Assembly: GCA_019454045.1 (NCBI GenBank)
Contig: SKCR01037648.1
Span: forward strand, 25,340 to 89,339
Length of the DNA: 64,000 nt
From: Zanthoxylum bungeanum
Taxonomy: Eukaryota; Streptophyta; Magnoliopsida; Sapindales; Rutaceae
Direction: 5' to 3'
A model generated the notes under the pieces. That model was not told the DNA's origin and searched no databases. It was given only the letters and a program-made list of their open reading frames with translations. Each line of letters starts with the position of its first letter. Within the stretch, counting starts at the first letter, position 1. Positions 9,546-56,321 of this stretch are shown piece after piece. The translations under genes were made by a program, and so were the position numbers.

Positions 9546-9548
9546 GCC

Positions 9549-9559
9549 AAGTGGGAGAT
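9549..9559 (+). other. Polypurine tract of copia A
   Basis: AAGTGGGAGAT directly abuts the 3' LTR. The same tract occurs in B (26986-26996) and, reversed, in AU (40963-40973). Confidence 0.85.
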
Positions 9560-11726: not shown

Positions 11727-11871
11727 CTTCCATCTTGAAATGACTTAATCTGCAAAAACTAAACACAGAAAATTAAATCACACAAAATCACAATATATAC
11801 ACAAATTGCATGGGTTGCCTCCCTGCGAGCGCTAAGTTTAGAGTGGTCAGCTAGACTTGACTTCTCGAACG

Positions 11872-12230: not shown

Positions 12231-12239
12231 GCAAGAATG

Positions 12240-14470: not shown

Positions 14471-14482
14471 GTTGACTAAAGC

Positions 14483-14579
14483 TTATTGGCCTTCTCGCTT
14501 TTCCCTTCTCAACTGTCTGATGGTTCTTTCAATTTCTGGGTCAAGCGATCGGAGTTCAAAGCTTCTGTTTCGTCTCATG
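14483..14579 (-). CDS. Short ORF upstream of and in frame with gag, ending in a shared TAA
   Basis: 31 codons starting MRRNRSFELR, rich in Arg and Glu, resembling the usual N-terminus of Athila gag. An in-frame TAA (14485-14483) cuts it off; the next ATG (14470) opens the main gag frame. G3 has the same TAA at 56415-56417, so the stop was present in a common ancestor. It could be an inherited defect, or a translation-control or readthrough point. Confidence 0.55.
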
Positions 14580-14685
14580 TAGTTTCTGAGAACCTGAAAC
14601 ACAAGAAAACAAAAGCAATAAGTAAAAAGAAATTAGATACAAGTAACGTATCTAACCCCAAAATTAATAGTGAAAGATAAATAAT

Positions 14686-14703
14686 TCCCCGGCAACGGTG
14701 CCA
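14686..14703 (-). other. Primer binding site of G1, tRNA-Asp type
   Basis: On the minus strand TGGCACCGTTGCCGGGGA, one mismatch from the Athila-type site complementary to tRNA-Asp. The intact form is in G3 (56197-56214). It sits six bases after the LTR end. Confidence 0.85.
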
Positions 14704-15447
14704 AAAACTTGACCGGCGTAAACACACACGTCTAACGCAAGCGCACATATCGTTCAAGTAGTATAAAAAGTATCGATCCCATGAGGACTTAATACCTAAG
14801 CTATTAATTTTATGAGGTCAAATGATTACTAGTATCTAACAGGTTGTTTGATAGATTTGAAAAGGTTACTATTCTAAATTTAAAAATAAGTAAATAAAAT
14901 TGTTCGAAAGTAGGTTTAAGAAAGTTCACTATTAAAAACTATCTAGGGTTGTGATTTCTTCCCATATCATTTTAAAGATGAAGTGGTTATCTTAAAGTTG
15001 GGTAATATATTGATTATTAACCTGGAACACTAAATTATGTGTAAGCCTCTGTCGATGGTCAGACACAAATACCCAGTATAACCTAATGGAACCATATGTC
15101 TATGTCAACCAAATTACCTGGATTCATTAAGATTAAGTTCCAATTATGGCTACCCCCGCCCGACAGGTATATTCCTATCCTGTAAGGACATCTATTAAAG
15201 GGTTCTTTATCCTCAAGGAAGATCATGGGCTATTGAGTCTAAGGTCTTAAACTTAAAATCCTTATGTCTAGTTCATTTTAAGTTTACCAGTTCAATTTTA
15301 TTAATAGCCAGTTAATAAAAAGTATTAAGATTAAGACTCAATAAATAAACCATTATATTACCCAAACTATAATTTAACCCCTTATAAACCGGTGATATTG
15401 GATTTCATCACAACCCCAGATAACTGGCTTAGTTACGACACAAATAT

Positions 15448-15640
15448 TTACTGGTAGTAAAAATTTAAATAAAATAAAAGACATAAAGTAAATTCTGAAA
15501 TTAAATACTGAAAGTAAATTGCTGAAAAGTAAAAAAAGTAAAAAGTAAAAGTAAAAAGTAAAAAGTAAAAAAAATAAAAGTAAATTACTGAAAGTAAATT
15601 GCTGAAAAGTAAATTACTGAAATTAAAAAAGTAAAAGTAC
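15448..15640 (-). repeat. Degenerate short tandem repeat in the gypsy LTR
   Basis: On the minus strand, repeated T(4-5)ACTTTTCAGCAAT-like units: pyrimidine tracts each followed by CAG, resembling a row of 3' splice acceptors. It also occurs at 57830-58030 in the G4 LTR. Confidence 0.6.
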
Positions 15641-15724
15641 AATAAAAGAAAATGATGGGGGTTAGAGGATCAACTTTTATTACTACTATTTTAGATATCT
15701 CCCTTAATATAATATATTAACTTT

Positions 15725-15900
15725 GCGTGATAATTACCAACCAGCCATATAGGCGGTATCCTGATTAAGTCAAATTAATAATTAATTACCAACCGACCAA
15801 CAGGCGGGTATCCATACTTAGTCAGGTTAAAACCAATTTATAATTAATTCCAACCGGCCAATATAGCGGTATCCTCATTAAGTCAGATTTTAAATAGTTT
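15725..15900 (-). repeat. Three-unit repeat of about 60 bp in the gypsy LTR
   Basis: Three diverged units, each with an ACTTAATnAGGATACCGC-like part followed by GGTTGGTAATTA. Counterparts at about 33280-33450 (G2) and 55135-55300 (G3) hold the same three units in the same order. Confidence 0.65.
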
Positions 15901-16325
15901 TATATTTATATTTAAGGGAGATTAATCTAGATAGCAATAATAAAAGCTTTACCTTTACCCCAGCAAAGGGGAGTTACCTCCTCATTGCTTGAAAATAAAA
16001 ACAGCAAAAGAAAGTAAAGAAAGAAAAGGTTTGTGCGTAAAAGTAAATTGCGAAAAGTAAAAACTGAAAAGTAAAGAAAGAAAGTGCGAAAGTGGAAATT
16101 CATTACTGGAAGCTGTAAATAAACAACAAGATACAATCTTCTTATTTATTCATTAGGAATTTCAAAGAAGAAAGTATGAATTTTACAAATGAAATGGCTT
16201 GGTATTTATAGGCAAAATCTTGCCTATATCAAATCATCCATCAAATTCTCCACCAAATCCATTATTAATTTCTCTACTAATTACTCCACCAAATCCATAA
16301 TTGCTCCACTAATTTCTGGCCCATT

Positions 16326-16776
16326 CTTTTTAAAGATGCCTACTTGTTTTCTCTTCAATGTGAAAGGTGCCAGAGAACGAGAAATATTTCAAGGAGAAAT
16401 GAATGACCTCTGTAAAACATTCTGGAAGTGGAGATATTTGATGTATGGGGATTGATTTTATGGGACCTTTTTTTTCCATCAATTGGAAACCTGTACATAC
16501 TGGTTGTTGTAGACTACGTCTCCAAATGGGTTGAAGCAATTGCACTACCATCAAACAATTCAAAAGTGGTGATTAAATTCCTTAAAATAATAATTTCACT
16601 CGCTTCGGAACACCTTAGGCTATTATTAGTGATGGTGGCACACATTTCTGCAACAAATATTTCGATGCACTCCTATCCAAATATGGAGTTACTTATAAAG
16701 TTGCCACTGCTTACCACCCACAGTCAAACGGACAGGTTGAAGTTTCAAACAGGGAGATTAAAAGAATCTTGGAGAG
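16326..16776 (+). pseudogene. Integrase of G2: end of the zinc finger and the catalytic core (first part)
   Basis: Frames show FKDAYLF, CERCQRT (CC half of the HHCC finger), [10 protein letters not shown] (first catalytic Asp), [28 protein letters not shown] in another frame (second Asp), [17 protein letters not shown] (catalytic Glu). These are the DD35E residues of a Ty3/gypsy integrase. At least two frameshifts. The frame resumes at 18807-18877 (tryptophan-rich STKNDWS...LDDALWAY block) and then at 29036. Confidence 0.85.
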
Positions 16777-18806: not shown

Positions 18807-18877
18807 GAGGAGAACTGTTGGATCAACAAAGAATGACTGGTCTACAAACTGGATGACGCACTATGGGCCTACCAGAC
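18807..18877 (+). pseudogene. Integrase fragment of G2 between two copia insertions
   Basis: Encodes RTVGSTKNDWST then, after a one-base loss, LDDALWAYQT. It joins 16776 on one side and 29036 on the other. CAGAC at 18873-18877 is repeated at 29036-29040. Confidence 0.8.
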
Positions 18878-20914
18878 TGTTGGATAATATGACCCATAGC
18901 GTCACTATTTGCACAGATCATTGTGTTGTTGTAGCAAATTAACTATGTAATAAGGAAATTGCACTCTCATCGTTTGTGATTAGATCACCATAGATATATA
19001 AATGAAGAGAGGTCCCTATGATTAGTTCCTGGACTGAGAATGATATGAGACAGTATCAGTCCCCAAAGGTTTAATCATTAAATATCCCTAGTCGTAGTAT
19101 TATCGAGACTGGACATCGATAATGCGGAATAGACTAGTATTGCACTTGTGCGCGTTGTGAGGGCACAACGGCATAGTTCTCATATATATAAGTATTGGAT
19201 ACTTGTGCAAGTGCGATAGGAGGTCGTGTTTCAACGATGGTACGGGAAACAGCTTCGCTCTGGATAGACCCTTCGGAATCCCATTGGTATTATGACTAGG
19301 TGTCTATGGGAGGCCGAAATCAAGGTAGGTGTGTATAGTCTTAACCTGAGACTTGTATCGCTAATACTTACGACAATCGGTAAACTTTGGTTTTTGTGGT
19401 TGGGGATCTTAACTGGTTCTGTGTTCACCTCTTCTGGGTTTATCAGAGAATCGTAGTGTATTGGATGTGATGTCAAGACGGAAGTGTCACTCCAGTCGTA
19501 ATGGAGATGATGTCACGCAGGATACGGTATTAGTGCTCTTAAAGTGATGCGCATCCAATCGTGATATTATGACCAGGTCATGAATATCCGATTATAGAGA
19601 CTAGTTACCAGACATCCGATATGTGTTTCGGACGGGGCAGACACTTATCCAGCCCCAGCCCTAGCACGTGATTATCCGATACTGGGCCGATATACACAAT
19701 ACAATTGTATACTACGCTTGATACAGATCTAGATATTCTTTGATGAATATGTCCGGAGAACTTGGGAAGACTTGGTGCTTTGCTAGGAGTCGACCTTGTC
19801 TCGTAAATCGGTAGAACGTAGTACTTGGTACGTACGTGATTCGGATACTCCGACGACCGTATTTACTGCCAACTTATCCGGGGATCTAATGGGTCGCTTC
19901 CCGATAATCCACCGATGACGCACAACTTGCACTCTTGAATAATCTGGGATTATATAGAAGAGAGAGAAAATTAATCTAGGATTAATAACGGAGATGTTTT
20001 ATCCGGGATAAAATATCGTCTAGAGAGAGAGAGCGATTAATTCGGAATTAATCGATGTATTAGACGAAATTTGATTTCGACGCGGAATTAAAATTAGATT
20101 TTAATTCGGGCAAACGAGTTAATTAAGAATTAATTCGTTAGCGACGTAAATAATAATTTCGCCGGGGGCGATTATTTATTTTAATTCGATTGAATTAACG
20201 TCGCGACGTAAGCTCGGTATTTCGGAAATATCGAACCCGAACGCGTGAGTGCACGTGGGCCCACTTTCATTTGGAACATGTGGGGCCCACATGACACATG
20301 TCATTCTAATGCTTTGCATGTAGATTGTGTACATTGTACTCAATGTCATTGCATGTAGATTGTGTACAATGCACTCAATGTTATTGCATGGAAATTGAGT
20401 GTTTTATACTCTAAGCCATTGCATGTTATGTGTCATAATTTTATTATTAATTTAATAAATTATGGAATAAATATAAATTGATTTTTGGTAAATAATTTTA
20501 ATTAACATAACACAACTTCTTCTCTCTCAAATTCTCTCATCTCTCTCACGCCCAAGTGTGGCTTTTCTTCACTGGTTTTGAACCAGTTTGGGCGTGAGCT
20601 AAAGGGAAGCAAGAGTGGTTTCTCATGGTGAGAAATCAAGTGCTAGCACACTTACAAGTCTTGCGAAGGTGGTAGGGAGGTTCGACCATGAGACGGGATC
20701 CATCCGACGAAGCTAGGAGCTCCGTTTCTTCACTAAATTTTCTGTTTTTGTAGGCAGTGGACTGCATGCAGTAAGCTTACATGGCAGTGCGTTTTTGGTT
20801 CATTGTCTTCAAATCGACTCTACCGATCAATGTGAGTATTCCGCTACCTCCGTTGATGTGTTCACACATAATTTCATGTCTTGTTTGATCTTGGGACCTT
20901 AGAATAAACTAACA
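18878..20914 (+). repeat. 5' LTR of copia B
   Basis: TG...CA, 2037 bp. Hairpin array about 19945-20150. A 35-bp tandem duplication lies at 20314-20383. Confidence 0.92.
20314..20383 (+). repeat. 35-bp tandem duplication in the B-type LTR
   Basis: Two units beginning TTGCATGTAGATTGTGTACA at 20314 and 20349, then a partial third unit at 20384. The solo LTR has a single unit (about 18241-18275), so the duplication is specific to B. The 3' LTR (about 28437-28506) has it too. Confidence 0.8.
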
Positions 20915-26985: not shown

Positions 26986-26996
26986 AAGTGGGAGAT

Positions 26997-29035
26997 TGTT
27001 GGATAATATGACCCATAGCGTCACTATTGCACAGATCATTGTGTTGTTGTAGCAAATTAACTATGTAATAAGGAAATTGCACTCTCATCGTTTGTGATTA
27101 GATCACCATAGATATATAAATGAAGAGAGGTCCCTATGATTAGTTCCTGGACTGAGAATGATATGAGACAGTATCAGTCCCCAAAGGTTTAATCATTAAA
27201 TATCCCTAGTCGTAGTATTATCGAGACTGGACATCGATAATGCGGAATAGACTAGTATTGCACTTGTGCGCGTTGTGAGGGCACAACGGCATAGTTCTCA
27301 TATATATAAGTATTGGATACTTGTGCAAGTGCGATAGGAGGTCGTGTTTCAACGATGGTACGGGAAACAGCTTCGCTCTGGATAGACCCTTCGGAATCCC
27401 ATTGGTATTATGACTAGGTGTCTATGGGAGGCCGAAATCAAGGTAGGTGTGTATAGTCTTAACCTGAGACTTGCATCGCTAATACTTACGACAATCGGTA
27501 AACTTTGGTTTTGGTGGTTGGGGATCTTAACTGGTTCTGTGTTCACCTCTTCTGGGTTTATCAGAGAATCGTAGTGTATTGGATGTGATGTCAAGACGGA
27601 AGTGTCACTCCAGTCGTAATGGAGATGATGTCACGCAGGATACGGTATTAGTGCTCTTAAAGTGATGCGCATCCAATCGTGATATTATGACCAGGTCATG
27701 AATATCCGATTATAGAGACTATTACCAGACATCCGATATGTGTTTCGGACGGGGCAGACACTTATCCAGCCCCAGCCCTAGCACGTGATTATCCGATACT
27801 GGGCCGATATACACAATACAATTGTATACTACGCTTGATACAGATCTAGATATTCTTTGATGAATATGTCCGGAGAACTTGGGAAGACTTGGTGCTTTGC
27901 TAGGAGTCGACCTTGTCTCGTAAATCGGTAGAACGTAGTACTTGGTACGTACGTGATTCGGATACTCCGACGACCGTATTTACTGCCAACTTATCCGGGG
28001 ATCTCATGGGTCGCTTCCCGATAATCCACCGATGACGCACAACTTGCACTCTTGAATAATCTGGGATTATAATAGAAGAGAGAGAAAATTAATCTAGGAT
28101 TAATAACGGAGATGTTTTATCCGGGATAAAATATCGTCTAGAGAGAGAGAGTGATTAATTCGGAATTAATCGATGTATTAGACGAAATTAGATTTCGACG
28201 CGGAATTAAAATTAGATTTTAATTCGGGCAAACGAGTTAATTAAGAATTAATTCGTTAGCGACGTAAATAATAATTTCGCCGGGGGCGATTATTTATTTA
28301 AATTCGATTGAATTAACGTCGCGACGTAAGCTCGGTATTTCGGAAATATCGAACGAACCCGAACGCGTGAGTGCACGTGGGCCCACTTTCATTTGGGAAC
28401 ATGTGGGGCCCACATGACACATGTCATTCTAATGCTTTGCATGTAGATTGTGTACATTGTACTCAATGTCATTGCATGTAGATTGTGTACAATGCACTCA
28501 ATGTTATTGCATGGAAATTGAGTGTTTTATACTCTAAGCCATTGCATGTTATGTGTCATAATTTTATTATTAATTTAATAAATTATGGCATAAATATAAA
28601 TTGATTTTTGGTAATAATTTTAATTAACATAACACAACTTCTTCTCTCTCAAATTCTCTCATCTCTCTCACGCCCAAGTGTGGCTTTTCTTCACTGGTTT
28701 TGAACCAGTTTGGCGTGAGCTAAAGGGAAGCAAGAGTGTTTCTCATGGTGAGAAATCAAGTGCTAGCACACTTACAAGTCTTGCGAAGGTGGTAGGGAGG
28801 TTCGACCATGAGACGGGATCCATCCGACGAAGCTAGGAGCTCCGTTTTTCACTAAATTTTCTGTTTTTGTAGGCAGTGGACTGCATGCAGTAAGCTTACA
28901 TGGCAGTGCGTTTTTGGGTTCATTTGTCTTCAAATCGACTCTACCGATCAATGTGAGTATTCCGCTACCTCCGTTGATGTGTTCACACATAATTTCATGT
29001 CTTGTTTGATCTTGGGACCTTAGAATAAACTAACA
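26997..29035 (+). repeat. 3' LTR of copia B
   Basis: 2039 bp, about 99% like 18878-20914 by eye. It carries a 4-bp duplication (GAAC near 28350) and several one-base length differences in homopolymers. Confidence 0.92.
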
Positions 29036-29535
29036 CAGACAACTTATAAAACACCCATTGGTATGTCCCCATATAGAATGGTTTTTGGGAAAGTGTTCCA
29101 TCTGCCGGTTGAGCTTGAACACAAGGCGTATTGGGCACTGAAGAAGTTGAATCTTGATCCACAAGTTGCAGGAGAGAAACGACTTCACCAACTCAACGAA
29201 TTGGAGGAATTTCGCCTACAGGCTTATGAGAATGCAAGATTATACAAAGAAAAGACCAATAAATGGCATGATAAAAAAAATAGTATGTAGACAACTTGAA
29301 CCAAGGTAGCAGGTGTTGTTATACAATTCAAGGTTAAAACTATTCCCTGGAAAGTTGAAATCAAGGTGGTCAGGTCCATTTGTGATCACTCAAGTTTTAC
29401 CATATGGAGTTGTTGAGTTACTTGATCCCAACACCAACGAAACATTCAAAGTTAATAGCCAGCGTGTCAAGCACTACTAGGGAGAATCATTTGAGCGACA
29501 AAAAGAAAGTGTCACACTTTCAGGTCCAGCCTAAC
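29036..29535 (+). pseudogene. Integrase C-terminal part of G2
   Basis: Continues from 18877 after copia [31 protein letters not shown] (29040-29150), then [22 protein letters not shown], then, after a frameshift and stop near 29280-29290, KSRWSGPFVIT, FKVNSQRVKHY and KESVTLSG (to about 29525). It is the DNA-binding tail of a plant Athila-type integrase, parallel to 12230-11872 in G1. TAG replaces the usual Trp codon in the HYWGE motif. Confidence 0.85.
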
Positions 29536-29672
29536 GTTCAGGCAGTCATGTCTAGCTGACGACTTTAAACTTAGCGCTAGCAGGGAGGCAACCCATGCAA
29601 TTTGTGTATTTATCGTGATCTGATGTGTTTTATTTTTGTGTGTTTAATTTTTGCATGTAAAGTTATTTCACG
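29536..29672 (+). other. Spacer between integrase and ORF2 in G2
   Basis: 137 bp with no ORF. It includes 'gcgctagcagggaggcaaccc', conserved in G1 at about 11812-11840. Confidence 0.5.
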
Positions 29673-30137
29673 ATGGAAGATGTTCTCGTAAATCTTCACA
29701 AGCAATTTCCTTCTCTCCCTCAAAATTCTCTGATGAAAGTCTACAAAGCTAGCTTGGAACGAATGAGACTACTGATGATAAAAGGTATTCCTACTGACAT
29801 TCATTGGATTATTGAAGCACGGGTCTGATTGGCAGGTGAGTCTTCTGACTCTTTTATTTCACATTTATTTGGTTTAGGAAGAAGCACATATGCTAAAAAT
29901 AGAAGAGCTAAAAGAATGGGTGTATGCTATAAATGTGCTCGTGTGTTTTGTAATACTCGTTGTCATTCTTTAGGAATGGTATCTAATAACTATGAAGATA
30001 AGATAAATTTCATTAGGGATGGCTTCAGTAAGAAGTCTTTGGATGACATATCTAAGACTCTTGAGACGCATCCCAGTGGAAACGTGTATCACGAAATTCT
30101 CTTGTTATATACACAATTCCGAAAAGAAAGACAATAG
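29673..30137 (+). pseudogene. ORF2: Cys/Arg-rich protein of G2, one internal TGA
   Basis: ATG 29673. 51 codons (MEDVLVNLHKQF...IIEARV), an in-frame TGA (29826-29828), then 102 more codons in the same frame to 30137. The second part has GRSTYAKNRRAKRMG, a basic stretch, then CX2CX4CX3C, then FIRDG, SLDDI and LETHPSG. It does not look like env, gag or pol. The plan of a basic arm, a zinc-finger-like Cys group and a following FI-x-x-G resembles the small Cys-rich nucleic-acid-binding proteins of plant flexuous RNA viruses (carlavirus type). That is a motif-level impression, not an established match. The TGA is shared with G1. Position: between integrase and the LOG-like gene. Function unproven. 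Confidence 0.5.
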
Positions 30138-30410
30138 TTAAGTCTCAGGAATCTGACTCTAAAAGACCATATTTGCCAATTTATAAGAAAATTGGATGGG
30201 AAGCTTGTCCCTGACGCATAGACGTTAATCAAGCATTTACTTTATTGTAAATATTATTTGTATTTATCTAATAATTGTGATTTTTGTTGTTGTTTTCTTT
30301 TATTTTCTCTCAAAGGATCCAGATCTTTTTGACCTTTCATCGATTTACTGTTTTACTACTAATCGTTCTTTGGAAGATACTAGTGCTATTATTACTCACC
30401 CCTTTTTCAG
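29836..30410 (+). other. Possible intron between ORF2 and the LOG-like gene (G2)
   Basis: Donor CAG/GTGAGT at 29835-29841 and acceptor CCTTTTTCAG ending at 30410. Both recur at matching places in G1 (571 nt there, 575 nt here). Splicing would remove most of ORF2 and deliver the LOG ATG (30480) near the 5' end of the next exon. Sequence inference only. Confidence 0.35.
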
Positions 30411-30479
30411 TTGTTATAAATTCAACTCATCATTGCACTTTTGAAGGCATCCAGATTTGAGAAAAGAAACATACATAAA
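30138..30479 (+). other. Spacer between ORF2 and the LOG-like gene
   Basis: AT-rich, with no ORF of note. It holds the acceptor-like CCTTTTTCAG at 30401-30410. Equivalent to 923-1235 in G1. Confidence 0.5.
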
Positions 30480-31132
30480 ATGGAAGCCACTTCAAGAAGA
30501 CGAGTTGTAAATATCTGTGTCTTTTATGGTACTAGTGTTGGTACTAAGCCACAATACGTAGCGGCAGCACATGAATTGGGTCGAGTCATAGCTGAAAAGA
30601 ATATGCACCTAGTATATGGCGGTGGAAATCTTGGACTAAGGGGGATCGTTTCAAAGGTCGTACAAGAAGGAGGTAGTCAAGTCTTGGGAATCATCCCAAA
30701 ACCCTTGGTGGAGGCGAATCTGATAGGATCATCAAACAGAGAGGAACAAATTGTGTCAGGTATGTCTGAACGACTGGTAGAAATGATTAACCGTGCTGAT
30801 GCTTTTATTGCTTTGCCAAGTGGCTTGGGTACAATGGAGGAAATTTTTACAGTACTATCTTGGGAAAACTTGAACATACACCAGAAACCAATTGGACTGT
30901 TTAACGCTGATGGATTCTATGATTTTCTTTGTGTATTTCTTGATGATGCCCGAAGAAATGGGTTCGAGTCAAACCTTTAAAAGAACTCATCTTCACTGCC
31001 AGAACTGCCCATGATTTAATTGACCAAATCTTAGCCTTTGAACCACAAATTGACCCTATCCTTTCCAAGATAAACTGGTCCGATAATGATCGTGGTAAAA
31101 AGCGTCAGATGAATCTGGTTGTTAACGTATAA
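30480..31132 (+). pseudogene. LOG-like: Captured LOG-type cytokinin riboside 5'-monophosphate phosphoribohydrolase in G2
   Basis: ATG 30480 chosen because it matches the start in G1; an in-frame ATG at 30441 would add 13 residues. The main frame is open for 166 codons to 30977: VNICVFYG, YGGGNLGLRG (nucleotide binding), VLGIIPKPL, ADAFIALPSGLGTMEE, KPIGLFNADGFYDF. The hallmark PGGxGTxxE motif reads PSG here, replacing a Gly that is normally invariant at the active site. A one-base loss after GFES shifts the frame; the remaining about 50 codons, to TAA at 31130-31132, are readable in another frame. It has no introns. Full-length LOGs are about 210-240 residues. Reaction in the family: cytokinin nucleotide to free base plus ribose 5-phosphate. 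This copy is unlikely to be active. Confidence 0.88.
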
Positions 31133-32461
31133 TTTTAATATAGAATTTCTACTAACCAGGTACTATCTTATAAACTCATCTTCTACCTTTTAAGACATTG
31201 GGGACAATATCTCATTTAGGTTTGGGGCTGGGGAATAGTTTTGGTATTTGTTTTTTATGTTGTTTTTATTTTTAGTAAAAAATAGTTGTAGTATTTTGTT
31301 TTGTTTTTATTTTTAGTCAAAAATTTTCGAAAAATAAAAAAAAAATTGAAAAATTTAACAAAAAATCAAAAAAAATTATTTTGTGTTTTTAATTTGATTA
31401 ATCTGATTAATCAGGTGAAATTGGTATGAGATTGTTGTGTAAGGAATTTCCACTCCTGAGACATATCTCAACCTATTTCGGAACAAGTTAATTTTTGTTT
31501 ATTTCATTTTGAATTATTTAATTTGTGAATTCTCCATAATACTAATTAAAATGAATCTTCATATGCTCAGTTGACAGATATTATCAACATACATGGTAAC
31601 ATACGGACATGAGTTGTAATTGACAAGTTTTTAATATTCAAAGCTCTAGTCTAATTGGAGGAATCATCTAAAAAATGATGGGATAAAAAAAAAACATCTG
31701 AGATCCGAGTTATTAAGTCCGTATGGGTGTTTTTAACACCTAATGCCCTAAAACCAACTGGTTTGGGAGCCACTGGCCCAAAGCTCGCTACATAGATCAA
31801 GGAATATATATATATATCTGAAGTCTAAGTAATCAAGTCCGTAGGGGTGTCTTAACACCTAGTGCCCTAAAGCAAACTGGTTTGGGAGTCACTGGCCTAA
31901 AGCTCGCTACATGGATGGAAGATATTGTATATATAAAAAAAATCAGAAAAATATTCAATTGTTTAAAAAAGATGTGAATTCTGATATAACTTTAAGACTC
32001 AAATATTACCTTCTTTTCAACTACATTTGTGACTATTGTAGGCAAAAATGAGTTGATTAATATTTTGTTCGCTGTGTGTATGGAGAATGGTAAACATAAT
32101 CGGAGAATTTACTTATTCAGTAATTTAGAAAGAAAGAAAACAACTTTAAACTTGGATAAGAAGTTTCATCTGATTAGTCACTAACTTCTTTATTCTCTTT
32201 TCTCTTGTCTTTTTGTTTTTATGTACATCAGTTTTACTATCTTTTTACTTTTGTAAAACATTTGTGGGTATCGTTGCTGTAAGCCCTCACGAGACTACAA
32301 CTTGTCGACTAGGGACAGCTAGGGGTTTAAAGACTTGTTGCATATGCTAAATGCAACTGTGATCCCTACGAAAGTGGCTTAGTTAAATTTTATTTTAAAG
32401 ATGTTTATGTTATTTTATGTTGTTTTGCTCGAGGACTAACAAAATGTTAGGTTTGAGGGTG
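31133..32461 (+). other. Noncoding stretch between the LOG-like gene and the 3' LTR of G2
   Basis: T-rich then A-rich DNA (31250-31390), a 120-bp-period duplication (31696-31922), and a purine-rich GGTTTGAGGGTG (32450-32461) that is the likely polypurine tract. No ORF of note. Confidence 0.6.
31696..31922 (+). repeat. Two diverged 105-bp repeats, period 120 bp, upstream of the G2 3' LTR
   Basis: Units begin ATCTGA at 31696 and 31816. Each has an internal GGTGT...ACACC hairpin, then CTGGTTTGGGAG, then AAAGCTCGCTACAT. Units differ at roughly one base in eight. They are separated by a TA run. Confidence 0.8.
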
Positions 32462-32689
32462 TGATAAGTGGTAAATGTATCATTATTTCCCACTCATTTG
32501 ACCTAATATTTTGTATAGTTTCTTATGTTTTGTGAATATTTTGATGTGTTTTGTGTTTCTTTGTAGATAAATAAAGTTTCAGGACTCTCTGGAGGTGATT
32601 TCTTGGTCAAAACAATGAAAAACGGACAAAAGGGCAAAATCATCTTTTGGCGCGTCGCGACCGTTAACGTTTTCCGGACCTCTGCTAAT

Positions 32690-32960
32690 ATACGCCGGGA
32701 CACGTGTACCAATCAGAGGGATTCTGCTAAAATGTGCTGGCTTACTAACATGCACCGAATCTGCTAACGTGCGCATGCCATGTGTCAACATCATAGCAAA
32801 TCATGCTAACGTACACCGGACACGTGTCACCATCACACGGTGCCGACAATCAACATCGCCACATCATCGTCACATCAGAATAATCATTGAGTTGCCGACG
32901 CCGTCTGCCATGTGTCATCTTATTGCAAATTTGTCTGCCACATGGCATCGCCTCTGTATG
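32690..32960 (+). promoter_or_regulatory. ACGT/G-box-rich repeats in the U3 part of the G2 LTR
   Basis: GACACGTGT at 32700-32708 and again near 32819-32827, within repeated GCTAACGTRC-like and CTGCCATGTGTCA-like units. CACGTG is a G-box and ACACGTGTC is an ABRE-type core in plants. They lie 180-310 bp upstream of TATAAAT. In G3 the surviving copy has CACATG instead. Confidence 0.5.
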
Positions 32961-33279
32961 CCACGCCGTAAATCACGGTGCGTCGCGACGCGTGAACCCA
33001 TCGACGCCTATAAATTCAGCTCGAAATTTCAGTTTCAGATGTACCTTCCTCTCTGTAATTCCTTGAGAATTCTAAGGAGTTTGTATATAGTTTGTTTAAT
33101 TTCAGTTTTATAATTAATTTTATTTACTTTTTATAATAGTAATTTACTTTCTTTACTTTTTCAGTTTTTACTATTCAGCAATGAAGAGGTAACTTCCCCT
33201 TGCTAAGGCGAAAGGTAAAGCTTTTATTATTGTTATTTTGATTAATCTCCCTTAATTATAATGTAATAACTATTTAAAA

Positions 33280-33450
33280 CTTGACTTAATGAGGATATCG
33301 CTATATTAGCCGGTTGGTAATTATATTAAATTGGTTTTAACCTAACTAAGCAAGGATACCGCCTAGTTGGTCGGTCGGTAATTAATTATTAATGTGACTT
33401 AATCAGGTTACCGTCCTAATGGCTGGTTGGTAATATCACACAAGTTATTA
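33280..33450 (+). repeat. Three-unit repeat of about 55 bp downstream of the TATA box in the G2 LTR
   Basis: Units carry GACTTAATnAGG, then a TACCGCC-like part, then GGTYGGTAAT. Same as 15725-15900 (G1, reversed) and 55135-55300 (G3). Confidence 0.7.
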
Positions 33451-34312
33451 TATTATATTAAGGGAGATATCTAAAATAGTAGTAACAAAAGTGGATCTTT
33501 TAACCCTAACATTTTCTTTTATTATACTTTTTCCTTTTTAATTTCTAGCATTTACTTTTCATCATCTTACTTTATGTCTTTTATTTTTAAGTTCTTACTA
33601 GTTGTAAATATGTGTCGTAGCTAAGCCCATTATCTGGGGTTGTGATGAATTCCAATATCACCGGTTTATAAGGGGTTATTTTATAATTGGGGTAATATAA
33701 AGGTTTACTTATTAAGTCTTAAGCTAATGTGTCTTGTTAACTGGCCACTAATAAGATTGATCGGGTAAACTTAAAATAAACTTGACGAAGGAATTTTAGG
33801 TTTAAAACCCTAGACTTAATAGCCCACGATCTTCATTGAGGATAGATAACCCTTTAATAGATTTTCTTACAAGATAGACATATAGATGTCAGGCGGGTGT
33901 AACCACAATTGGAACTTAGTCTTAATGAATTCAGGTAACTTGGTTGACATAGACATATGATTAATTGGGTTACACTAGGTATTTGCATCCGACTATCAAC
34001 AGAGGCTTTTGCAGAATTTTGTGTTCCCGGTTAGTAAACCAATATATTATACAAACATAAAATAATCACTTCATCTTTAAAAGATATTGGAAGAAATCAC
34101 AACCCTTGATAGTTTAATAAATTTGTATTTTCCTCAACCAACTTTTGCGCCATTTTATTTACTTGTTTTAAATTTAAGTCACCATTACAATCAACAATCA
34201 TCCATTAGATACTAGTAATCATTTGAGTTCATAAAACTAATAACTTAGGTATTAAGTCCTCGTGGGATCGATACTTCTTATACTACTTGAATGATACATG
34301 CGCTTGCGTTAA

Positions 34313-39048: not shown

Positions 39049-40962
39049 TGTTGGTTTCTTTTATATGTCCCAAGGAAAGATTAAGCATATAAAATACAAC
39101 AATGAATATATATTAAAAGATGAAGTATGGCGGAATCATACTTACAAAGCTTTTGTGATGAGAAGTGATGAAGAAAATCTTTGAATCTCCAAGCTTCAAG
39201 TTTCGGCCAAGGGAGGAAGAAGAGTTGAAGCTCCAAGCTTTGTGTATTCCAAGCTCTTTGATGGTTTCCCTATCACCTCCTTTGATCCTTCAATGTGCTA
39301 GCAAATGGAGAAAAGAAAATCAAATCTTCTTTGCCCTAATGGAAGTCACGGCATTGTGAGAGAGAGAGGAGAGTTGTATTAATCTTTGTTACAAAAATCA
39401 ATTTATATTTATGCCATAATATTTATTAAATTAATAATAAACTTATGACACAAATCATGCAATGGCTTAGAGTGTCAAACACTCAAACTCCATGCAAAAC
39501 CATTGAGTGTATTGTACACTATCACCATGCAATGTATTAACAATTAAATAATGCATATAATGACATGTGTCATGTGGGCCCCACACGTTTCCAAATGAAA
39601 GTGGGCCCACGTGCACTCACGCGTTCGGGTTCGATATTTCCGAAATACCGAACTTACGTCGCGACGTTAATTAAATCGAATTTAAATAAATAATTGCGCC
39701 TAGCGAAATTATTATTTACGTCGCTAACGAATTAATTCTAAATTAACTCGTTTGCCCGAATTAAAATCTAATTTTAATTTCGCGTCGAAATCGAATTTCG
39801 ATTATTATATCGAATATAATAATTTTATCGATTAATTCTAAATTAATCGTTCTCTCTCTAAATAAGGCACTTTATCCAAGATAAAGTTTCTCCGCAATTA
39901 ATCCAAGATTAATTAAGTCCGAATCAAATATCATAGGTGAATCTTCAGGAAGCGACCCAAGAGATCTCCGGATATGTTGGCAGTAAATACGGTCGTCGGA
40001 TAATCCGAACACGTACGTACCTCGTACTACGTTCTTACCGATTCATAAGACAAGGTTGGCTTCTAGCAAAGCGCCATGCCTACCCAATTCTCCAGAATAT
40101 TCTTACTGGAATATTAGATCTATATCAAGCGTAGTATACCGTAGTATTGCGTACATCGATCCAGTATTGGACGATCACATGTTAGGCCTGGGGCTGGAAA
40201 TGTGTCTGCCCCGTACAAAACATATATCGGACATCAAGCAACTAGTCTCTTTAAATCGGACAATCCTGACCTGGTCATATTGTCCCGACGGTTGCAACCT
40301 TTTATAGAGTACTAGTTTTGTGTCCTGCGTGATCATCACCTCCATATGTCTGAAGTGATACTCCCATCTCGACATCACATCCAGTACACTACGATTCTCG
40401 ATAAACCCAGAAGAGGTGTACATAGAACCGGTTAAGGTCCCCAACCACCAAAACCAAAGTTTACCGATTGTCGCAAGTACTAGCGATGTAAGTCTCAGGT
40501 TAAGACCATATACACCTACCCTGATGCGGCCTCCCATAGACACGCAGACATACTACCAATGGGATTCCGCGAGGTCTATCCAGAGCGAAGCTGTTTTCCG
40601 TACCATCGGTAAAACACAACCTCCTATCGCACTTGCATAAGTATCCAATACTTAAATATATGAGAACTATGCCGTTGTGCCCTCTCAACGTGCACAAGCG
40701 CAATACTAGTCTATTCCGCATTATCGATGTCCGATCTCGATAATACTCCGACTAGGGATATTTAATGATTAAACCTTTATGGATTGACAATGTCTCATAT
40801 CATCTCAATCCGGTATTAATCATATGGACTTTCGCCATTTATATATCAAAGTAAATAATATTACAAAACGGCAAAAGGCAATTTCATTATCACATAGTTA
40901 ATTTTGTACAATAATACAATATCATTTACAAACAGTGACGCTATGGGACATAATGTCTAACA
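39049..40962 (-). repeat. 3' LTR of AU
   Basis: TG...CA ends; 1914 bp. Hairpin array about 39718-39920 with plus-strand loops CTA, CGA and CAA (TAG, TCG and TTG on the element strand). Confidence 0.93.
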
Positions 40963-40990: not shown

Positions 40991-41670
40991 TCAAGCATCT
41001 AATATACCCGAACTATGTATGTGTCGTTCAAAAACTTGCTGAAGAACAGCCTTCGTCAGCGGATCTGCAATGTTTTCATCTGATGTGACCTTCTCGACCT
41101 TTACATCGCCACGATGTATAATCTCCCGAATCAGATGGTAACGTCGAAGAACATGCTTGGACCGTTGATGAGACCTTGGTTCCTTAGCCTGTGCTATAGC
41201 CCCGTTATTGTCACAATACAATGGAACGGGCTCAGCTGCTAACGGAACTACTCCTAATCCGATTAGGAACTTTCGGATCCAAACTGCCTCTTTTGCTGCT
41301 TCAGATGCAGCGATGTACTCCGCTTTTGTTGTTGAATCGGCAACAGTATCTTGCTTGGAAGATTCCAGCTCACTGCTCCGTTATTCAAAAAAAAAATGTA
41401 CCCGGATTGTGACTTGTAGTCATCCTTGTCGGTTTGGAAACTTGCATCGGTATACCCAGATACCGCAAGTTCTCCACCTCCATATATTAAGAAAGCATCC
41501 TTAGTTCGTTTAAGATACTTAAGGATATTCTTAACTGCTATCCAGTGACCTTCACCTGGATCGGCCTGATAGCGACTGCACATGCTCAAAGCATATGAGA
41601 CATCAGGTCGTGTACATATCATGGCATACATGATCGATCCGACTGCCGAGGCGAACGGTATCCGACTCAT
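40991..41670 (-). pseudogene. pol: RNase H domain of AU pol
   Basis: MSRIPFASAVGSIMYAM, TRPDVSYAL, then GELAVSGYTDASFQTD (catalytic Asp), SGYIFFLNNGAVSW. A one-base loss near 41357 shifts the frame through the TTKAEY-type Glu motif and IAASEAAKEA. The domain ends MYCDNNGAIAQAKEP, RSKHV, VTSDENIADPLTKAV (41221-40991). It normally degrades the RNA strand during reverse transcription. The copia-family residues are present at DNA level; only the frame is broken. Confidence 0.9.
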
Positions 41671-41682
41671 GTTGTCTCTCTC

Positions 41683-42420
41683 TGCCTAAGTCTTAGGACA
41701 CATGTCCTTAGACAGAGAGGTACCACGTACCATTAGAACCAATCCCCTCTTGGATTGTTCCATGTTGAATCGCTTCAACACTTTATCAATGTATGTACTC
41801 CGGGAGAGTCCAAGCAGCTTTCTAGATCTATCCCGGTAGATCTTTATTCCAAGAATAAAGGCTGCTTCTCCCAGATCTTTCATGGAGAATTTTAATGAAA
41901 GCCAAGCTTTCACCGACGTTAGCATGGGAATGTCATTGCCTATAAGAAATACGTCGTCGACATAAAGGACAATAAAAGTAAGTGCTCTCCCACTAACCTT
42001 CTTGTATACACAAGGGTCATCTGCGTTTTGCACGAAATCATATTCTTTTATGATCTCATCAAAACGCTGATTCCATGACCGTGATGCTTGCTTCAATCCA
42101 TAAATGGATCGATTTAACTTACAAACCTTGTTTGCAAGTCTTGGTACGATAAAACCGTTAGGCTGTTGCATATAAACATCCTCCAAAAGGTTTCCGTTAA
42201 GGAAAGCGGTTTTAACGTCCATCTGCCATATCTCGTAATCGAAATATACAGCTATTGCAAGCATTATCCGAATGGATTTAATCATGGCAACGGGTGAGAA
42301 GGTTTCGTCATAATCAATACCCATTGTTGACGATACCCCTTCGCTACAAGCCTAGCTTTGTACGTTTGTACGTTGCCATCCATGTCGGTCTTCTTCTTGA
42401 AGATCCATCTGCATCCAATA
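41683..42420 (-). pseudogene. pol: Reverse transcriptase domain of AU pol
   Basis: The N-terminal part lies in the integrase frame (WQEAMKSEMDSMYANQVWTLV, CRWIFKKKTDMDG, ARLVAKGYRQQ). After a one-base loss near 42315 it continues GIDYDETFSPVAMIKSIR, QMDVKTAFLNGNL, SIYGLKQASRSWN, the active site YVDDVFLIGN, and MKDLGEAAFILGIKI to 41686. TAG at 41685-41683 replaces a probable CAG codon, and the same frame continues beyond. It copies element RNA into cDNA. All RT core blocks are visible. Confidence 0.92.
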
Positions 42421-43640
42421 GGCTTTACGCCTTCTGGTGCATCAACCAGTGTCCAAACTTGGTTGGCGTACATGGAATCCATCTCGGACTTCATGGCTTC
42501 TTGCCATAAAGCGGAATCGATATTTTGTATCGCTTCCTCATACGTAGCCGTCTCATTATCCTCAATAAGATTAATATCTACATGAGGTGAGATCAGGAAC
42601 CCATACCTCTCAGGTACTGTTCTGACTCTCTCCGACCTACGCGGTCCTTGTGTATGTGAAGTTTGTGGTACAGACTCATCCCGGACGGTCTGTTCATATT
42701 CCGTCGTTGATTCATTGCCAGGAACAGTATCACTACGATCTTCATCGAGTTCTACTTTCCTCCCACTTACCACTGCATTTATAAAATCCTTCTCAAGAAA
42801 AAATGTTTGTAGAGCAACAAATACTTTGTCCTCTTGTGGGTGATAGAAGTAATATCCTTTGGTTTCCCTAGGATATCCTACGAAAAGGCATTTATCAGAT
42901 TTGGGTTCAAGTTTGGTACCTTCCAAACGTTTAACATATGCCCAACATCCCCAAATCTTCAGGAAAGAGAAACCTGGTTTCCTTCCTGTCCATATTTCAT
43001 ATGGAGTCTGTTCAACAGACTTCGACGGTACCTTATTCAAAATAAGTATAGCACTGTTTAATGCGTATCCCCAGAAGGATATTGGTAGCTCAGTGCGACT
43101 CATCATTGACCTTACCATGTCTAACAAGGTGCGGTTTCTCCGTTCGGACACACCGTTTAATTGCGGTGTTCCAGGAGGAGTCCACTGTGAAAGAATACCA
43201 TATTCTTTCAAGTAATCTTGAAACTCATAACTTAAGTATTCGCCACCACGGTCTGACCGTAATGTCTATAATACTCTTCCCTGTTTGTTTCTCCACTTCG
43301 TGTCGAAAACTTTGAATTTCTCAAAAGTTTCCGACTTGTGTCTCATAAGATACACATAACCGTAACGAGATGCATCATCTGTGAAGGTTACGAAGTAGTG
43401 AAATCCACCTCTAGCCTGGCTAGACATGGGCCCGCATACGTCAGTATGAACGAGAGCCAACAGTTCTGTGGCACGTTCACCTTACCGCTAAAAGGTGATT
43501 TAGTGCATTTTGCCTAAAAGACAAGATTCGCAGACGTCATATGAATTGGGATCAAATTCGTCCAAGTACCCACTCTTCGAATGTGGAGTATGGATATGCG
43601 AGTCTTGTGTGATGTGTCCTAGACGACATTGCCACATATA
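42421..43640 (-). pseudogene. pol: Integrase of AU pol
   Basis: Zinc-finger remnant (CRLGHI, later CESCLLGK) at about 43640-43500; core ALVHTDVCGPM (first Asp) and FTDDASRYGYVYLM at 43460-43340; in-frame TAG at 43265-43263; then RSDRGGEYL (second Asp) and NGVSERRNRTLLDMVRSMM (Glu); then the copia tail FWGYAL, TPYEIWTGRKP, WGCWAYVK, FVGYPRETKGYYFYHP. It inserts element cDNA. Apart from the one stop the frame appears open from about 43460 to 42282. Confidence 0.9.
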
Positions 43641-44040
43641 AGCTTCATCTTTTAGATTACTTCTTTTGAGCCTTTTGTTGTCATTTTAGGAGATTCATTT
43701 ATATTCAAAATATAAAGACCGTTATTTGCAACAGCTGTGCAAATTTCTGCATCATTTTTATATAAATAACACCCAGTGTTTCTAAATACAAAAGTGTAAC
43801 CCTGCTGGGTTAACAAGGATACAGATATAATATTCCTAGTTAAACTAGGTACAAAATAACAGTTCAAAAGTTTAAGTACATGCCCTGAGGGCAGTCTAAA
43901 ACAAGAGTCCCTACGGCCAAAACAGCAACATTGTTCCGTTCCGACCGACCGTAGATCCATCTCCCCTGACGCCAACACCCTGCATCCCCACAACAGTACA
44001 AATATGAGCACCACAACCAGAATCAAAAATCAAATTTTTA
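43641..44040 (-). pseudogene. pol: Protease and GAG-pre-integrase region of AU pol
   Basis: Active-site DSGCGAHIC is encoded around 44024-43998 in one frame. The next part, LPSGHVLKLLNCYFVPSLTRNIISVS and GYTFVF to NNGLYILN (43652-43890), is in another, so at least one frameshift lies between. It is the retropepsin that processes the polyprotein. Confidence 0.85.
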
Positions 44041-44062
44041 AATAAAAGTAGAAGTATTTATT

Positions 44063-44923
44063 TTATCTAATAAACATACCAGAGGCGATAGCCTTGCCAG
44101 CCTTGATATCCTCCCTCTGCCCTTTGCCCATTCGGCAGTCACGTTTCCAGTGACCCCTCTTGCCGCAGTTGAGGCAGATGTCGTGAGATTTGTCCTTTGG
44201 CTTCCTAGAAGCCACTGTCAACTTGCCTTTGCCCTTGTTCTTGAACTTCTTCTTCCTCGCACCTCCAATTGCCTTGGGCCCAGCCCTTGGCGCATGAGAG
44301 GTCGATGCATAATGCGCCTCGCGCTTGCTCCCCTTTAGGAGTTCCTTTTCGGACTCCTTCAGCACGGACAACAACTCTCCAAGAGTGTCGTCAGTGTCCA
44401 TCAACTTATAGTTGATGATGATTTGTTTCCAAGTATCGGGTAGCGATTGTAATAGCATATCAATCGTCAGCTCTGCCTCCAAGACAATGCCCATCTTGGC
44501 TAACTCATCTATGTCAGCGATCATTTGAGTCCCGTGGGCCTCAACTGATGCGCCGTCTGTCATCCGGGAGCGGAAGAGTTTCCTTACTAGCTCGTACCTC
44601 TCCATCCGCTTGTTGGTGCGGTGGAGATCACGCAATCTTGCCATCATGTTATAGGGATCCAAGTCCATGTTCTGGCGTCTGAAATGCTGGGTCATTGCAG
44701 CTAGCATAACTGACTGAGCTTGGTCACAATCGTCACTATGAGTCTTCCATAACTCTAGCTCCAGTGGCTCAGTGGGTTTAGGCGGGAGAGGTCTCTGAAT
44801 AGTATACAGTACCCTCTCAGCCCCAAGCACTATCTTGAGGTTCATTTCCCAGTCGGCAAAGTTTGTCCCTTTGAAGACATTATCGCCCATGATTATGTCG
44901 CGGACATTACCCTTGCCAGTCAT
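44063..44923 (-). CDS. gag: Gag of AU (Ty1/copia), 286 codons, open
   Basis: Forms the virus-like particle and binds element RNA. Start ATG 44923 (MTGKGNVRDIIMG), with no better upstream ATG in frame. Central UBN2-type copia gag: FADWEMNLKIVL, LWKTHSDDCDQAQSVMLAAM, RLRDLHRTNKRMERYELVRKL, LLQSLPDTWKQIIINYKLMD, LLSVLKESEKELL. Then a basic linker and a CCHC knuckle CLNCGKRGHWKRDC (CX2CX4HX4C). The stop at about 44060 separates it from protease. It is the only full-length retrotransposon structural ORF in the window. The gag-less elements A-D have nothing like it at this position. Confidence 0.93.
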   Translation of the reverse strand: MTGKGNVRDIIMGDNVFKGTNFADWEMNLKIVLGAERVLYTIQRPLPPKPTEPLELELWKTHSDDCDQAQSVMLAAMTQHFRRQNMDLDPYNMMARLRDLHRTNKRMERYELVRKLFRSRMTDGASVEAHGTQMIADIDELAKMGIVLEAELTIDMLLQSLPDTWKQIIINYKLMDTDDTLGELLSVLKESEKELLKGSKREAHYASTSHAPRAGPKAIGGARKKKFKNKGKGKLTVASRKPKDKSHDICLNCGKRGHWKRDCRMGKGQREDIKAGKAIASGMFIR

Positions 44924-47119
44924 CTTGACAACTATAGTCCAACTATAAAGTCAACGATGTTATGGGTACAGTCAAACTGTTACAAGCAAAATAACAATAT
45001 TAGTCCAACTAATTATTAAAATATTGACGAAATAATTTTGAAAGACGCGTAAGGCTAAGTATCTGAACGAAATAGCAAATTCAATAATAGCCTCCCACTA
45101 TTTTCTTCAAGTCTCTAACCCTCTGTAGAGAACTCGGGAAATCGAATTTCCTAGTGGGCTAGGATCCCGTTAAATAACACACAACCTTGACTTTGGCCAA
45201 TAAAAGCTGTATGCTATTTAACTTAGGTAGATCTCTATGATCAATTGGATCTCATCCAATTCCTAGATCCGGTTAGGTGGACATCCAAGTCCGAAACATA
45301 TGTATAATGTCAATGTATCCATTACATTTTCCTAACCCTATCCTCCGAATCATCTAGGCCTTGGCTTTGGCCAAAAACAAACCTAATGATTCCAGTTAAG
45401 CGGGACCCATTGACGAGGAAAGTTTCGTAATCAATGTCATTGGACAAAAAGTGATCTTGACTTTGGCCAATAAAAATCACGATTTGGACAAGACACCGAT
45501 ATGCAACAAAACTCTCATGATTCAAGTACATCCTTGATTGACAAAGGTCTTGACTTTGGTCAAAAACAAACCAATGCCAACTTCGGATCTTGAACAAGAA
45601 TCATTCAATGGAAGGATATTTGCTTAATATAAATTGAGGGATTTTTCGCGTAATTGGCAACCAATTTATTTATCTTTGTTAGGTCTCATCATCATACACC
45701 CTTAAGCATGCTTCTAAAACATCATAAAGCGCGTAAAGTAAATTATAGTGATATGCGGATGGATATATAAACAACTTGTTCCTAGAACAAATCACTCCCT
45801 TTCCTCTCCCCGCTAGCACTATTCTACTCTTACCCAATTACATAATACAATAAGAGAAACCTCATTTACATTGAGGGGAATTAGGTGAGAAGAGAATACA
45901 AAGAGATAAAGAGATAAGGCTGGACACGCAGGTCCAATTTATTAATTCCAAATTTACAATAATTTCTAAAATTACCATTTCCCTTCATATCCATCCGATA
46001 TACACTATTCATTCATCACATACATATATTTTCAAACAAGACATGCTTTTTACAACCAATCTAATCCAATTAATTAGTCTATGTTTAAGTGATCATCCAA
46101 TGTTCAAACAACGGTTTGATTTTGCGCGAGTCCAACTCGATTGAGAATAAGTACATAAGGTACGAATTCGCGAATTATATCGAACTACTTATTAAATCTA
46201 ATTTAATTCGTATTCAATACTAATTCAATTATTTAATTCCAAATTAAATGTTTACACTTTTAATGTGCTTTAAAGACTTAGATTCTAAATCTAATCCTAT
46301 TGGGTCTCAAAGCCCAACTAACATCCAATGTTAAATTTAATTCAAGTCAAATGGGCTTTCAATTGATTTATTAAGGCTTGGGCTTTGGTCAATGTGGGTC
46401 AAACCCAATTACCAAGCCCAAATAAGGAATCACCCTTAAATGCCATAAAACCAATTTTAAGCCCATAAGGCCCAATTAAATTTTTAAAGCCCATTATATT
46501 ATATTTGGACTTAATGGAGTGATTTAGGCCCAAATTGGATCCAATCCTTTTGGCCCAAATCTACTTGGTCCACCCAAGCCCATTATGCCCAAATACAATA
46601 TTAAAAGCCCAATTCACCAATTAAGCCCATTAATTAAATTTTAATATTCCAAACATTAAAGTCCAATTAATTAAAGTGTAAAACCAAGATTAATATATTA
46701 AACCAAATATTTCAAAAATACCCATTTAATTTATTAATCATCTATTGTTCAAAACATATGTCCAACATTAATTTGAACAAAAATCAAGTCCATTTTCATG
46801 TCCATTATCATTCGGCCAAGTGAGAATTTTTGTGTCGATTTGTTTTTCAATCCGATTGAATTACTATCTACGTCCCGTATACGTTTTAAGTCATCCAATG
46901 ATCTTGTACACAAAAAATTCCAATACATCCAATGTTCATACCCATTCGGCCAAGGTTACATTTTTGGGGAAAAATCATCCAATGCATTTTTCTCAAAATT
47001 GATTCCATATAACATCATTCTATATACATGTAAGCATACTCATTAATCAAATTTCACAAGAACATGCTTCAATCAATTTTACCCAAATTTTAACCTAAAG
47101 TATTTCATGCTTAACCATG
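44924..47119 (-). promoter_or_regulatory. Leader of AU with hairpins
   Basis: TGG/TTG-loop mini-hairpins just upstream of gag (ATAGT/ACTAT at about 44932-44946; ACAGT/ACTGT at about 44969-44982; ATTAGT/ACTAAT at about 45001-45015, plus strand). The constant-loop array has cores at 45186-45198, 45359-45372, 45456-45468 and 45549-45561. The rest is AT-rich and noncoding. Confidence 0.7.
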
Positions 47120-56190: not shown

Positions 56191-56196
56191 AGTTTT

Positions 56197-56214: not shown

Positions 56215-56321
56215 CATAGTTATCTTTCACTATTAGATTTGGGGTTAGATACGTTACTTGTGTCTAATTTCTTTTTACTTATTGTTTTTGTTTTCGTGTG
56301 TTTCAGGTTCTCAGATACTAC

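Follow-up and report, generated by a model that had tools for sequence, protein, structure and literature searches.

A LOG-like gene as selected cargo of an abundant family of Athila-like gypsy retrotransposons

A gene resembling the plant cytokinin-activating enzyme LOG, found inside an LTR retrotransposon, raises the question of whether the element carries it by accident or keeps it as a working part. The case arises in a stretch of 64,000 nucleotides (the window) at C34051:25340-89339 of G000, a large plant genome whose 51,709 contigs total 3.96 Gb. The window is made up of nested LTR retrotransposons and contains 2 such genes on opposite strands. A sequence-only reading of the window had proposed that a gypsy family acquired the gene before the 2 copies separated, and had left open whether the product once let the element affect its host tissue or was a chance transduction later lost.

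The plus-strand gene (30480-31132) is intronless, and its first frame piece matches the Pfam domain Lysine_decarbox (PF03641, E 3.2e-28). Compared with the open copy L024, to which it is 88.1% identical, it carries a single 1-base deletion causing a frameshift and zero stops; the second Gly of its PGGxGTxEE motif is changed to Ser, and its tail has decayed with loss of the LxLxL motif. The minus-strand gene (268-922; 93.6% identical to L024) has two 1-base deletions, a 3-base insertion, and one stop, and its tail is intact. Both window copies are broken, each by its own lesions, as the sequence-only reading had described, and in both the gene occupies the same place, with an integrase part and an intergenic stretch upstream and the 3′ noncoding region and LTR downstream; including flanks, the 2 copies align at 80% across ~1.7 kb. 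A chance open reading frame (ORF) at 30480-31132 was ruled out by the Pfam match together with the genome-wide abundance of the LOG start (see below).

The plus copy can be followed on the plus strand from an integrase part (16314-16776), separated by nested insertions from the integrase end (29038-29531; 90% identity to L024), with a further integrase piece of 68 bases at 18810-18877. A noncoding stretch (29532-30455; 83%) then leads to LOG, which is followed by the 3′ noncoding region (31141-32460; 82%) and the 3′ LTR (32462-34311). The minus copy reads on the minus strand from its 5′ LTR (14704-16313, the outer end being presumed to lie where the plus copy resumes, at 16314) through the primer-binding site, gag, and a protease part (12325-14703) to a C-terminal integrase remnant (11875-12296; 73-76% to L024). 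The noncoding stretch preceding its LOG (923-1704, remainder at 11727-11874) is split by a nested insertion (1705-11726), and its 3′ noncoding region begins at 40-267 and runs on left of the window, where the rest of that region and the 3′ LTR lie in locus L106. The 2 LTRs of this copy differ by a K2P distance of 0.037 (58 of 1,595 sites). The minus copy is of a form deleted for reverse transcriptase (RT) and integrase. It sits within pol of the plus copy, and the protease-RT part of the plus copy resumes to its left, also in L106. A third family copy (54707-57403, plus strand) comprises an LTR, a primer-binding site at 56197, and gag, and LOG is absent from it within the window. Two young insertions are also visible: inside the plus copy, direct repeats of 2 kb, 98.9% identical (18874-20914 and 26993-29035), make up an LTR pair, and 1.9-kb repeats, 99% identical (39049-40962 and 47135-49048), surround a copia-type element whose gag/pol ORFs occupy 40991-44950 of the minus strand.

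The gene extends far beyond this locus. A 24-mer from the LOG start (≤2 mismatches) matched the 3.96-Gb genome 29,204 times, and the primer-binding site TGGCGCCGTTGCCGGGGA had 20,029 exact matches; the reversed patterns matched 0 times each. These numbers exclude a LOG confined to this locus, and the genome-wide copies likewise rule out local duplication alone as its source. The complete layout was pieced together from fetched loci. L024 contains a gag ORF (PF03732), a pol ORF encoding RT, RNase H, and integrase zinc finger and core domains with no chromodomain, and a 217-aa LOG ORF 0.9 kb 3′ of pol; in the fetched loci, ~1.3 kb of noncoding sequence separates LOG from the 3′ LTR. In contig C21229, a 5′ LTR of ~2.17 kb (L015:8801 to L016:966) is followed by TGGCGCCGTTGCCGGGGA. 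The family has gag, the order RT - RNase H - integrase, LTRs, and a primer-binding site, as Ty3-gypsy elements do. The hallmarks of Athila are this primer-binding site, which we take to be complementary to tRNA-Asp, the lack of a chromodomain, one RNase H, and a long region between pol and the 3′ LTR; all are present here, and we refer to the family as Athila-like gypsy, a label based on primer-binding site and layout.

The family occurs in 3 layouts. When the first 100 primer-binding sites listed were compared with 84 listed exact LOG starts on the same contigs, 40 had a same-strand LOG start 0.2-6.4 kb downstream, at distances of 1.84-1.96 kb (15 pairs), 3.26-3.75 kb (15), 5.7-6.35 kb (9), and 0.24 kb (1), and 5 further pairs were 11-19 kb apart. 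From the fetched loci, the 3 main classes correspond to a short form, a form deleted for RT and most of integrase that retains a diverged integrase remnant (L010, L012, L017, L018, L027, L028, and the window minus copy), and a form with full pol (L016, L022, L024, and L026). In the one short form inspected (L019), the 1,929-base interior has no ORF >126 aa and no stretch resembling L024 gag, RT, or integrase, and 3 of its small ORFs had zero Pfam matches above cut-off. LOG is common to all 3 layouts, among pairs that were themselves selected by its presence. In the deleted form, the C-terminal integrase remnant is 72-77% identical to L024 (same loci; 11875-12296 in the window) and whole LOGs are ~94-96% identical, a difference that suggests recombination or selection.

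The distribution of variants among copies bears on whether LOG is kept or merely carried. Variants were scored against L024 and binned by the number of carrier copies, and the ratio of nonsynonymous to synonymous changes (N/S) was scaled by a neutral expectation of 2.95, derived by base context from changes that are at low frequency in the 3′ noncoding sequence. Since copies picked by hidden Markov model (HMM) are biased towards good proteins, dN/dS was not based on them alone, and 2 other sets were used instead: 38 layout-picked copies (14 of 15 short, 15 of 15 middle, and 9 of 9 long; the omitted short copy lies at a contig end) and 40 DNA-picked copies (39 fetched by DNA likeness plus the window plus copy). 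In the layout-picked set, the scaled ratio fell from 0.84 for variants in 1 copy to 0.44 (2-3 copies), 0.19 (4-8), and 0.13 (9-35; P 8e-7, Fisher test of singles versus the top class). The DNA-picked set gave 1.61, 0.84, 0.43, and 0.18 in bins of rising frequency (P 1.8e-9), and the pooled sets 1.11, 0.84, 0.38, and 0.19 (P 4e-11). No fall was seen in the control reading frames +1 and +2, the ratio even rising in frame +2 of the 38 copies, and stops numbered 8 among single-copy variants and 0 among variants in 9-34 copies. With 3 other open references from the set of 40, the contrast was weaker than with L024 (top bin 0.34, 0.38, and 0.59; P 0.004, 0.010, and 0.12). For the short, middle, and long layouts, pairwise dN/dS came to 0.20, 0.23, and 0.25, respectively, and a group of 24 copies, HMM-picked or from the window, also gave 0.25. 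In 4 pol-bearing elements it was 0.125 for LOG, 0.111 for RT-RNaseH, and 0.191 for integrase, although these LOGs were HMM-picked and may look too good.

Single-copy variants are therefore near neutral (0.84-1.61) and widely shared ones strongly constrained (0.13-0.19), which is the pattern of a gene needed during replication. Since the gradient is lacking in the wrong frames, we conclude that selection acts on LOG during element replication and that the gene decays once it has been inserted. That LOG is selected cargo of the gypsy family is, in our judgement, nearly certain: it is an accessory gene of an extremely abundant element, not a relic. Open LOGs made up 6 of 41 DNA-picked and 12 of 38 layout-picked copies, and lesions affected the other 35 and 26; some single-base indels, especially in copies with many, may have arisen in the assembly. 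The 3′ noncoding flank has a K of 0.09 as against 0.198 at LOG synonymous sites (HMM-picked copies), so that the flank must be constrained, homogenised, or less mutable; on the 0.09 yardstick, dN in the same copies (0.050) is lower by no more than a factor of about two. Shared LOG variants private to the short layout comprise 0 synonymous and 2 nonsynonymous changes, too few to serve as proof of selection in that layout by itself, for which they were tried and failed. The upstream interior of the short layout is a different sequence common to its copies, and the paucity of private LOG variants beside an interior of its own implies that LOG has been exchanged among layouts, probably by recombination.

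The origin of the gene was examined in a tree of 57 proteins (2 bacterial, 13 canonical plant, 35 element-type, and 7 from G000). Element-type LOGs fall on one side of a branch supported at 98/96, the 13 canonical plant LOGs form a separate branch (99/93), and the element-type proteins lie outside the clade of LOG1/3 and LOG8, the canonical set consisting of LOG1/3-type proteins and a single LOG8. P0033, P0041, and P0080 branch early within the element clade. LOG was read inside elements in this genome, and other plants are represented by proteins, those named coming from Xanthoceras, Populus, Reevesia, Diplodiscus, and Paulownia. The Reevesia proteins are spread over many chromosomes, as mobile copies would be, the element setting itself having been read in G000 only, and Populus proteins annotated as LOGL10 belong to the element-type clade. 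When 150 of 38,301 candidates for a canonical C-terminal LOG peptide in G000 were scored, at least 27 host matches had 62-90% identity, followed by a gap to 39-45% among the other matches listed; most cover residues 3-57 only, as an exon would. The LOG exons of this genome are thus a group separate from the element LOGs. Two pattern searches of viral contigs for element LOGs of other plants gave 12 and 7 matches, with zero confirmed. In Xanthoceras sorbifolium, 4 proteins (P0010, P0019, P0032, and P0241; 290-381 aa) contain 2 successive LOG-like stretches, 3 judged by sequence and the fourth by length and name; a possible trace of a neighbouring gypsy protease in these doubled LOGs amounted to just 15 residues (E 0.043) and was not used. 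The 29,204 starts, the single clade, and the constraint on widely shared variants are in line with what the sequence-only reading had anticipated, namely many element copies in one clade with dN/dS below 1 on internal branches and a capture before the 2 window copies separated, which here took place long before.

The protein has a LOG fold according to the AlphaFold model (mean pLDDT 87.0), for which the best PDB match by Foldseek is AtLOG3 (2a33; E 1.1e-22, target TM 0.95), with fold-alignment identities of ~50% to AtLOG3 and ~44% to AtLOG8 (1ydh). An exact PGGxGTxEE motif is present in 101 of 120 element-type as against 109 of 120 LOG1/3-type proteins. In CgLOG, the catalytic residues are Arg99 and Glu122, the presumed prenyl site comprises Met96, His97, Lys100, Glu125, and Trp129, and the His, Lys, and Glu are assigned to the adenine/prenyl pocket (PMC4979012). 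We counted the corresponding residues in 117 element-type proteins (3 doubled Xanthoceras proteins omitted), 64 G000 copies, and 120 canonical proteins. The catalytic Arg is kept in 105/117 element-type proteins and 55/64 G000 copies (6 other G000 codons being stops), and the catalytic Glu in 113/117 and 63/64; at the prenyl site, Trp is present in 115/117 and Met in 96/117. The pocket is altered. His is found in 24/117 element-type proteins, and Lys and Glu in 5/117 each; all three are found in 0/64 G000 copies and 120/120 canonical proteins. At these positions G000 copies have Ser (58/64), Leu (62/64), and Thr or Ile (62/64), so that the element-type proteins as a group depart from the His-Lys-Glu pocket of AtLOG3, OsLOG, CpLOG, and CgLOG. 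Among the 5 proteins with Lys are the early-branching P0033, P0041, and P0080, and the pocket change therefore came after the split from canonical LOG. By its residues the element protein is probably still an enzyme. The hormone-activating function of the earlier description stays putative: the catalytic pair is largely retained, but the residues replaced in the pocket as defined for CgLOG (PMC4979012) speak against the simplest reading of that kind.

Complete element-type proteins differ from canonical ones also at their C-terminus, which ends in a basic cluster followed by alternating hydrophobic residues (e.g., KKRKLNLTLSL). Requiring a basic cluster in the last 22 residues and [LIV]x[LIV]x[LIV] in the last 9, we found both in 126 of 146 complete element-type tails, and a strict LxLxL in 123 of the 146; in 120 LOG1/3-type proteins the hydrophobic motif occurs 0 times and the basic cluster once. 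LxLxL is present in 68 of 72 readable G000 tails, and the early-branching P0033 and P0080 end in a basic cluster without LxLxL. Nuclear signals usually take the form of a basic cluster, and LxLxL is the form of the EAR motif, which binds TOPLESS corepressors; both kinds of short motif are frequent in plant proteins. In the predicted model the tail is disordered, as a docking motif would be. Going by the motifs, the element LOG would rather likely be nuclear; its binding of a corepressor is a finely balanced matter on which we lean slightly to the doubtful side.

Upstream of the gene, 18 of 24 copies have a strict pyrimidine-CAG stretch 51-72 nt ahead of the LOG ATG, and in 17 no other ATG intervenes; in the window plus copy this putative 3′ splice site is at 30390-30410 (plus strand), 69 nt before the ATG. 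Such a stretch would fit a spliced LOG mRNA. Pyrimidine-CAG|GT stretches also occur just before the gag ATG (L015/L016, L019, L024, and others).

Based on these observations, we propose that this high-copy Athila-like gypsy family carries LOG as an accessory (3′ additional) gene under selection, the intronless coding sequence of which would have been captured long ago, once or very few times, and kept while elements replicate. The product would be a LOG-fold nucleotide phosphoribohydrolase with a retained catalytic pair and presumed enzyme activity; its base-binding pocket having changed, cytokinin ribotide is probably no longer the substrate, or not the only one. The C-terminal basic cluster and LxLxL, which appear to have been gained, may serve nuclear import and docking to TOPLESS-type corepressors, and the most likely benefit would be an altered state of the host nucleus, through hormone or nucleotide signalling or through silencing, that favours copying. 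Position in the element, copy number, purifying selection, residues, tail, and fold prediction are observed; for the whole combination of a selected 3′ accessory gene, an altered pocket, and a nuclear or corepressor-directed tail, we incline to acceptance by a modest degree. In a bolder version, an ancient retrotransposon lineage would have turned a hormone-activating enzyme into its own nuclear effector. Translated from a spliced mRNA, the protein would be a catalytically competent phosphoribohydrolase of LOG fold that acts on a new nucleotide and bears a nuclear signal and an LxLxL tail for docking to TOPLESS. It would be under selection in eudicot genomes, be needed by full-length and deleted forms alike, and make the nucleus or the cell state of the host permissive for transposition; taken as a whole, this is speculative and rather unlikely.

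Rival accounts differ from our proposal in either the origin or the function of the gene. Chance transduction of a host gene, passively carried and decaying neutrally, would explain the lesions in both window copies and in most of the DNA-picked and layout-picked ones, but it predicts no fall of N/S from neutrality to 0.13-0.19 with rising allele frequency that vanishes in the wrong frames, no conservation of tail and catalytic motifs in proteins of several plant families, and no constraint on LOG resembling that on RT in the same copies. We give it almost no credence; a neutral passenger is ruled out for the family by the frequency gradient and is retained for single old insertions, so that the loss envisaged by the sequence-only reading describes the fate of each window copy and not that of the family. 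Repeated recent captures of host LOG genes in place of one are conceivable inasmuch as the canonical LOGs in the tree, one LOG8 and otherwise LOG1/3-type, could miss a close host paralogue; yet the element LOGs share one side of the 98/96 branch and a common tail, and the host exons stand apart across the identity gap, which leaves this account very improbable.

Of the functional rivals, classical cytokinin activation, by which cells expressing the element would stay dividing or meristematic and insertions would reach the germ line, draws on the LOG fold and catalytic pair, on a plant-like sequence (206 bits to AtLOG3), and on the canonical MHERK pocket residues of the basal proteins P0033, P0036, P0037, P0041, and P0080. 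Set against it is the replacement of the pocket His, Lys, and Glu, invariant in canonical LOGs, in most element-type proteins and in all 64 G000 copies; Leu, Ile, or Met at the Lys position may or may not permit activity. We regard this account as unlikely, though not negligible. A scaffold or sensor of the SLOG type, binding nucleotides without catalysis in particle assembly, packaging, or silencing evasion, would suit the rewired base pocket, the added tail, and the 10 of 117 element-type proteins with Gln for the catalytic Arg. It has no need of both catalytic residues, however, and the Glu and Arg are kept at the high frequencies given above, so that this option seems less likely still. 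Our preferred reading remains a selected accessory gene encoding a modified LOG-fold enzyme.

The presence of a LOG domain in gypsy elements is already in print, and the kind is therefore known. Screening 121 angiosperm genomes, Alvarado-Marchena et al. (2022; PMC9289625) found a YgdH/LOG domain in gypsy consensus sequences of Citrus sinensis and C. clementina and, with a filter off, in Populus trichocarpa, and cite an earlier report (Steinbauerova et al., 2011). The cargo that the sequence-only reading called unusual is thus rare, although not new, going by the sections of PMC9289625 on these elements. As here, the domain is an extra one in a gypsy element; those sections give its detection alone, and our analysis adds another host, ~29,000 copies, 3 layouts, selection tests, catalytic and pocket residues, and the basic and LxLxL tail. 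Our literature search on LOG in LTR retrotransposons returned nothing on selection, architectures, pocket, or tail, with PMC9289625 alone naming LOG/YgdH, and a search combining the EAR motif with transposable elements gave nothing on element-encoded proteins among the titles listed. A gypsy lineage of Phalaenopsis has likewise fixed an accessory ORF resembling a host enzyme, an AlkB-type RNA demethylase; that enzyme is a different one, and its activity was demonstrated in vitro (PMC9289625). The 3′ additional or env-like ORFs of Athila also lie between pol and the 3′ LTR on the sense strand (PMC7264820, PMC11728184), and the one in sunflower has a predicted nuclear localisation signal as well (PMC11728184), but in the descriptions consulted these ORFs are env-like or of unknown domain (PMC7264820, PMC11728184), and the element LOG is a LOG-fold protein. 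With the plant cytokinin riboside 5′-monophosphate phosphoribohydrolases AtLOG3 and AtLOG8, the element LOG shares fold, PGGxGTxEE, and catalytic Arg and Glu; it differs in being intronless, in its pocket residues, in its basic and LxLxL tail, and in forming a separate clade.

For most additional ORFs of plant LTR retrotransposons no function is known. In this family a recognisable enzyme fold, present in tens of thousands of copies, is kept by selection of roughly the strength seen on RT, and it has specific pocket and tail changes that can be tested. The element LOG offers a direct route to asking whether plant retrotransposons manipulate host hormone or nucleotide signalling or corepressor chromatin, and annotations that name such proteins LOGL10, as in Populus, may count transposon genes as cytokinin genes. 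One further arrangement of the gene was seen in L013 (C45283:55154-65153), where LOG - 3′ noncoding - LTR units are repeated in tandem at a spacing of ~3.49 kb, with 2 whole LOGs and a partial third that are 97-99% alike.
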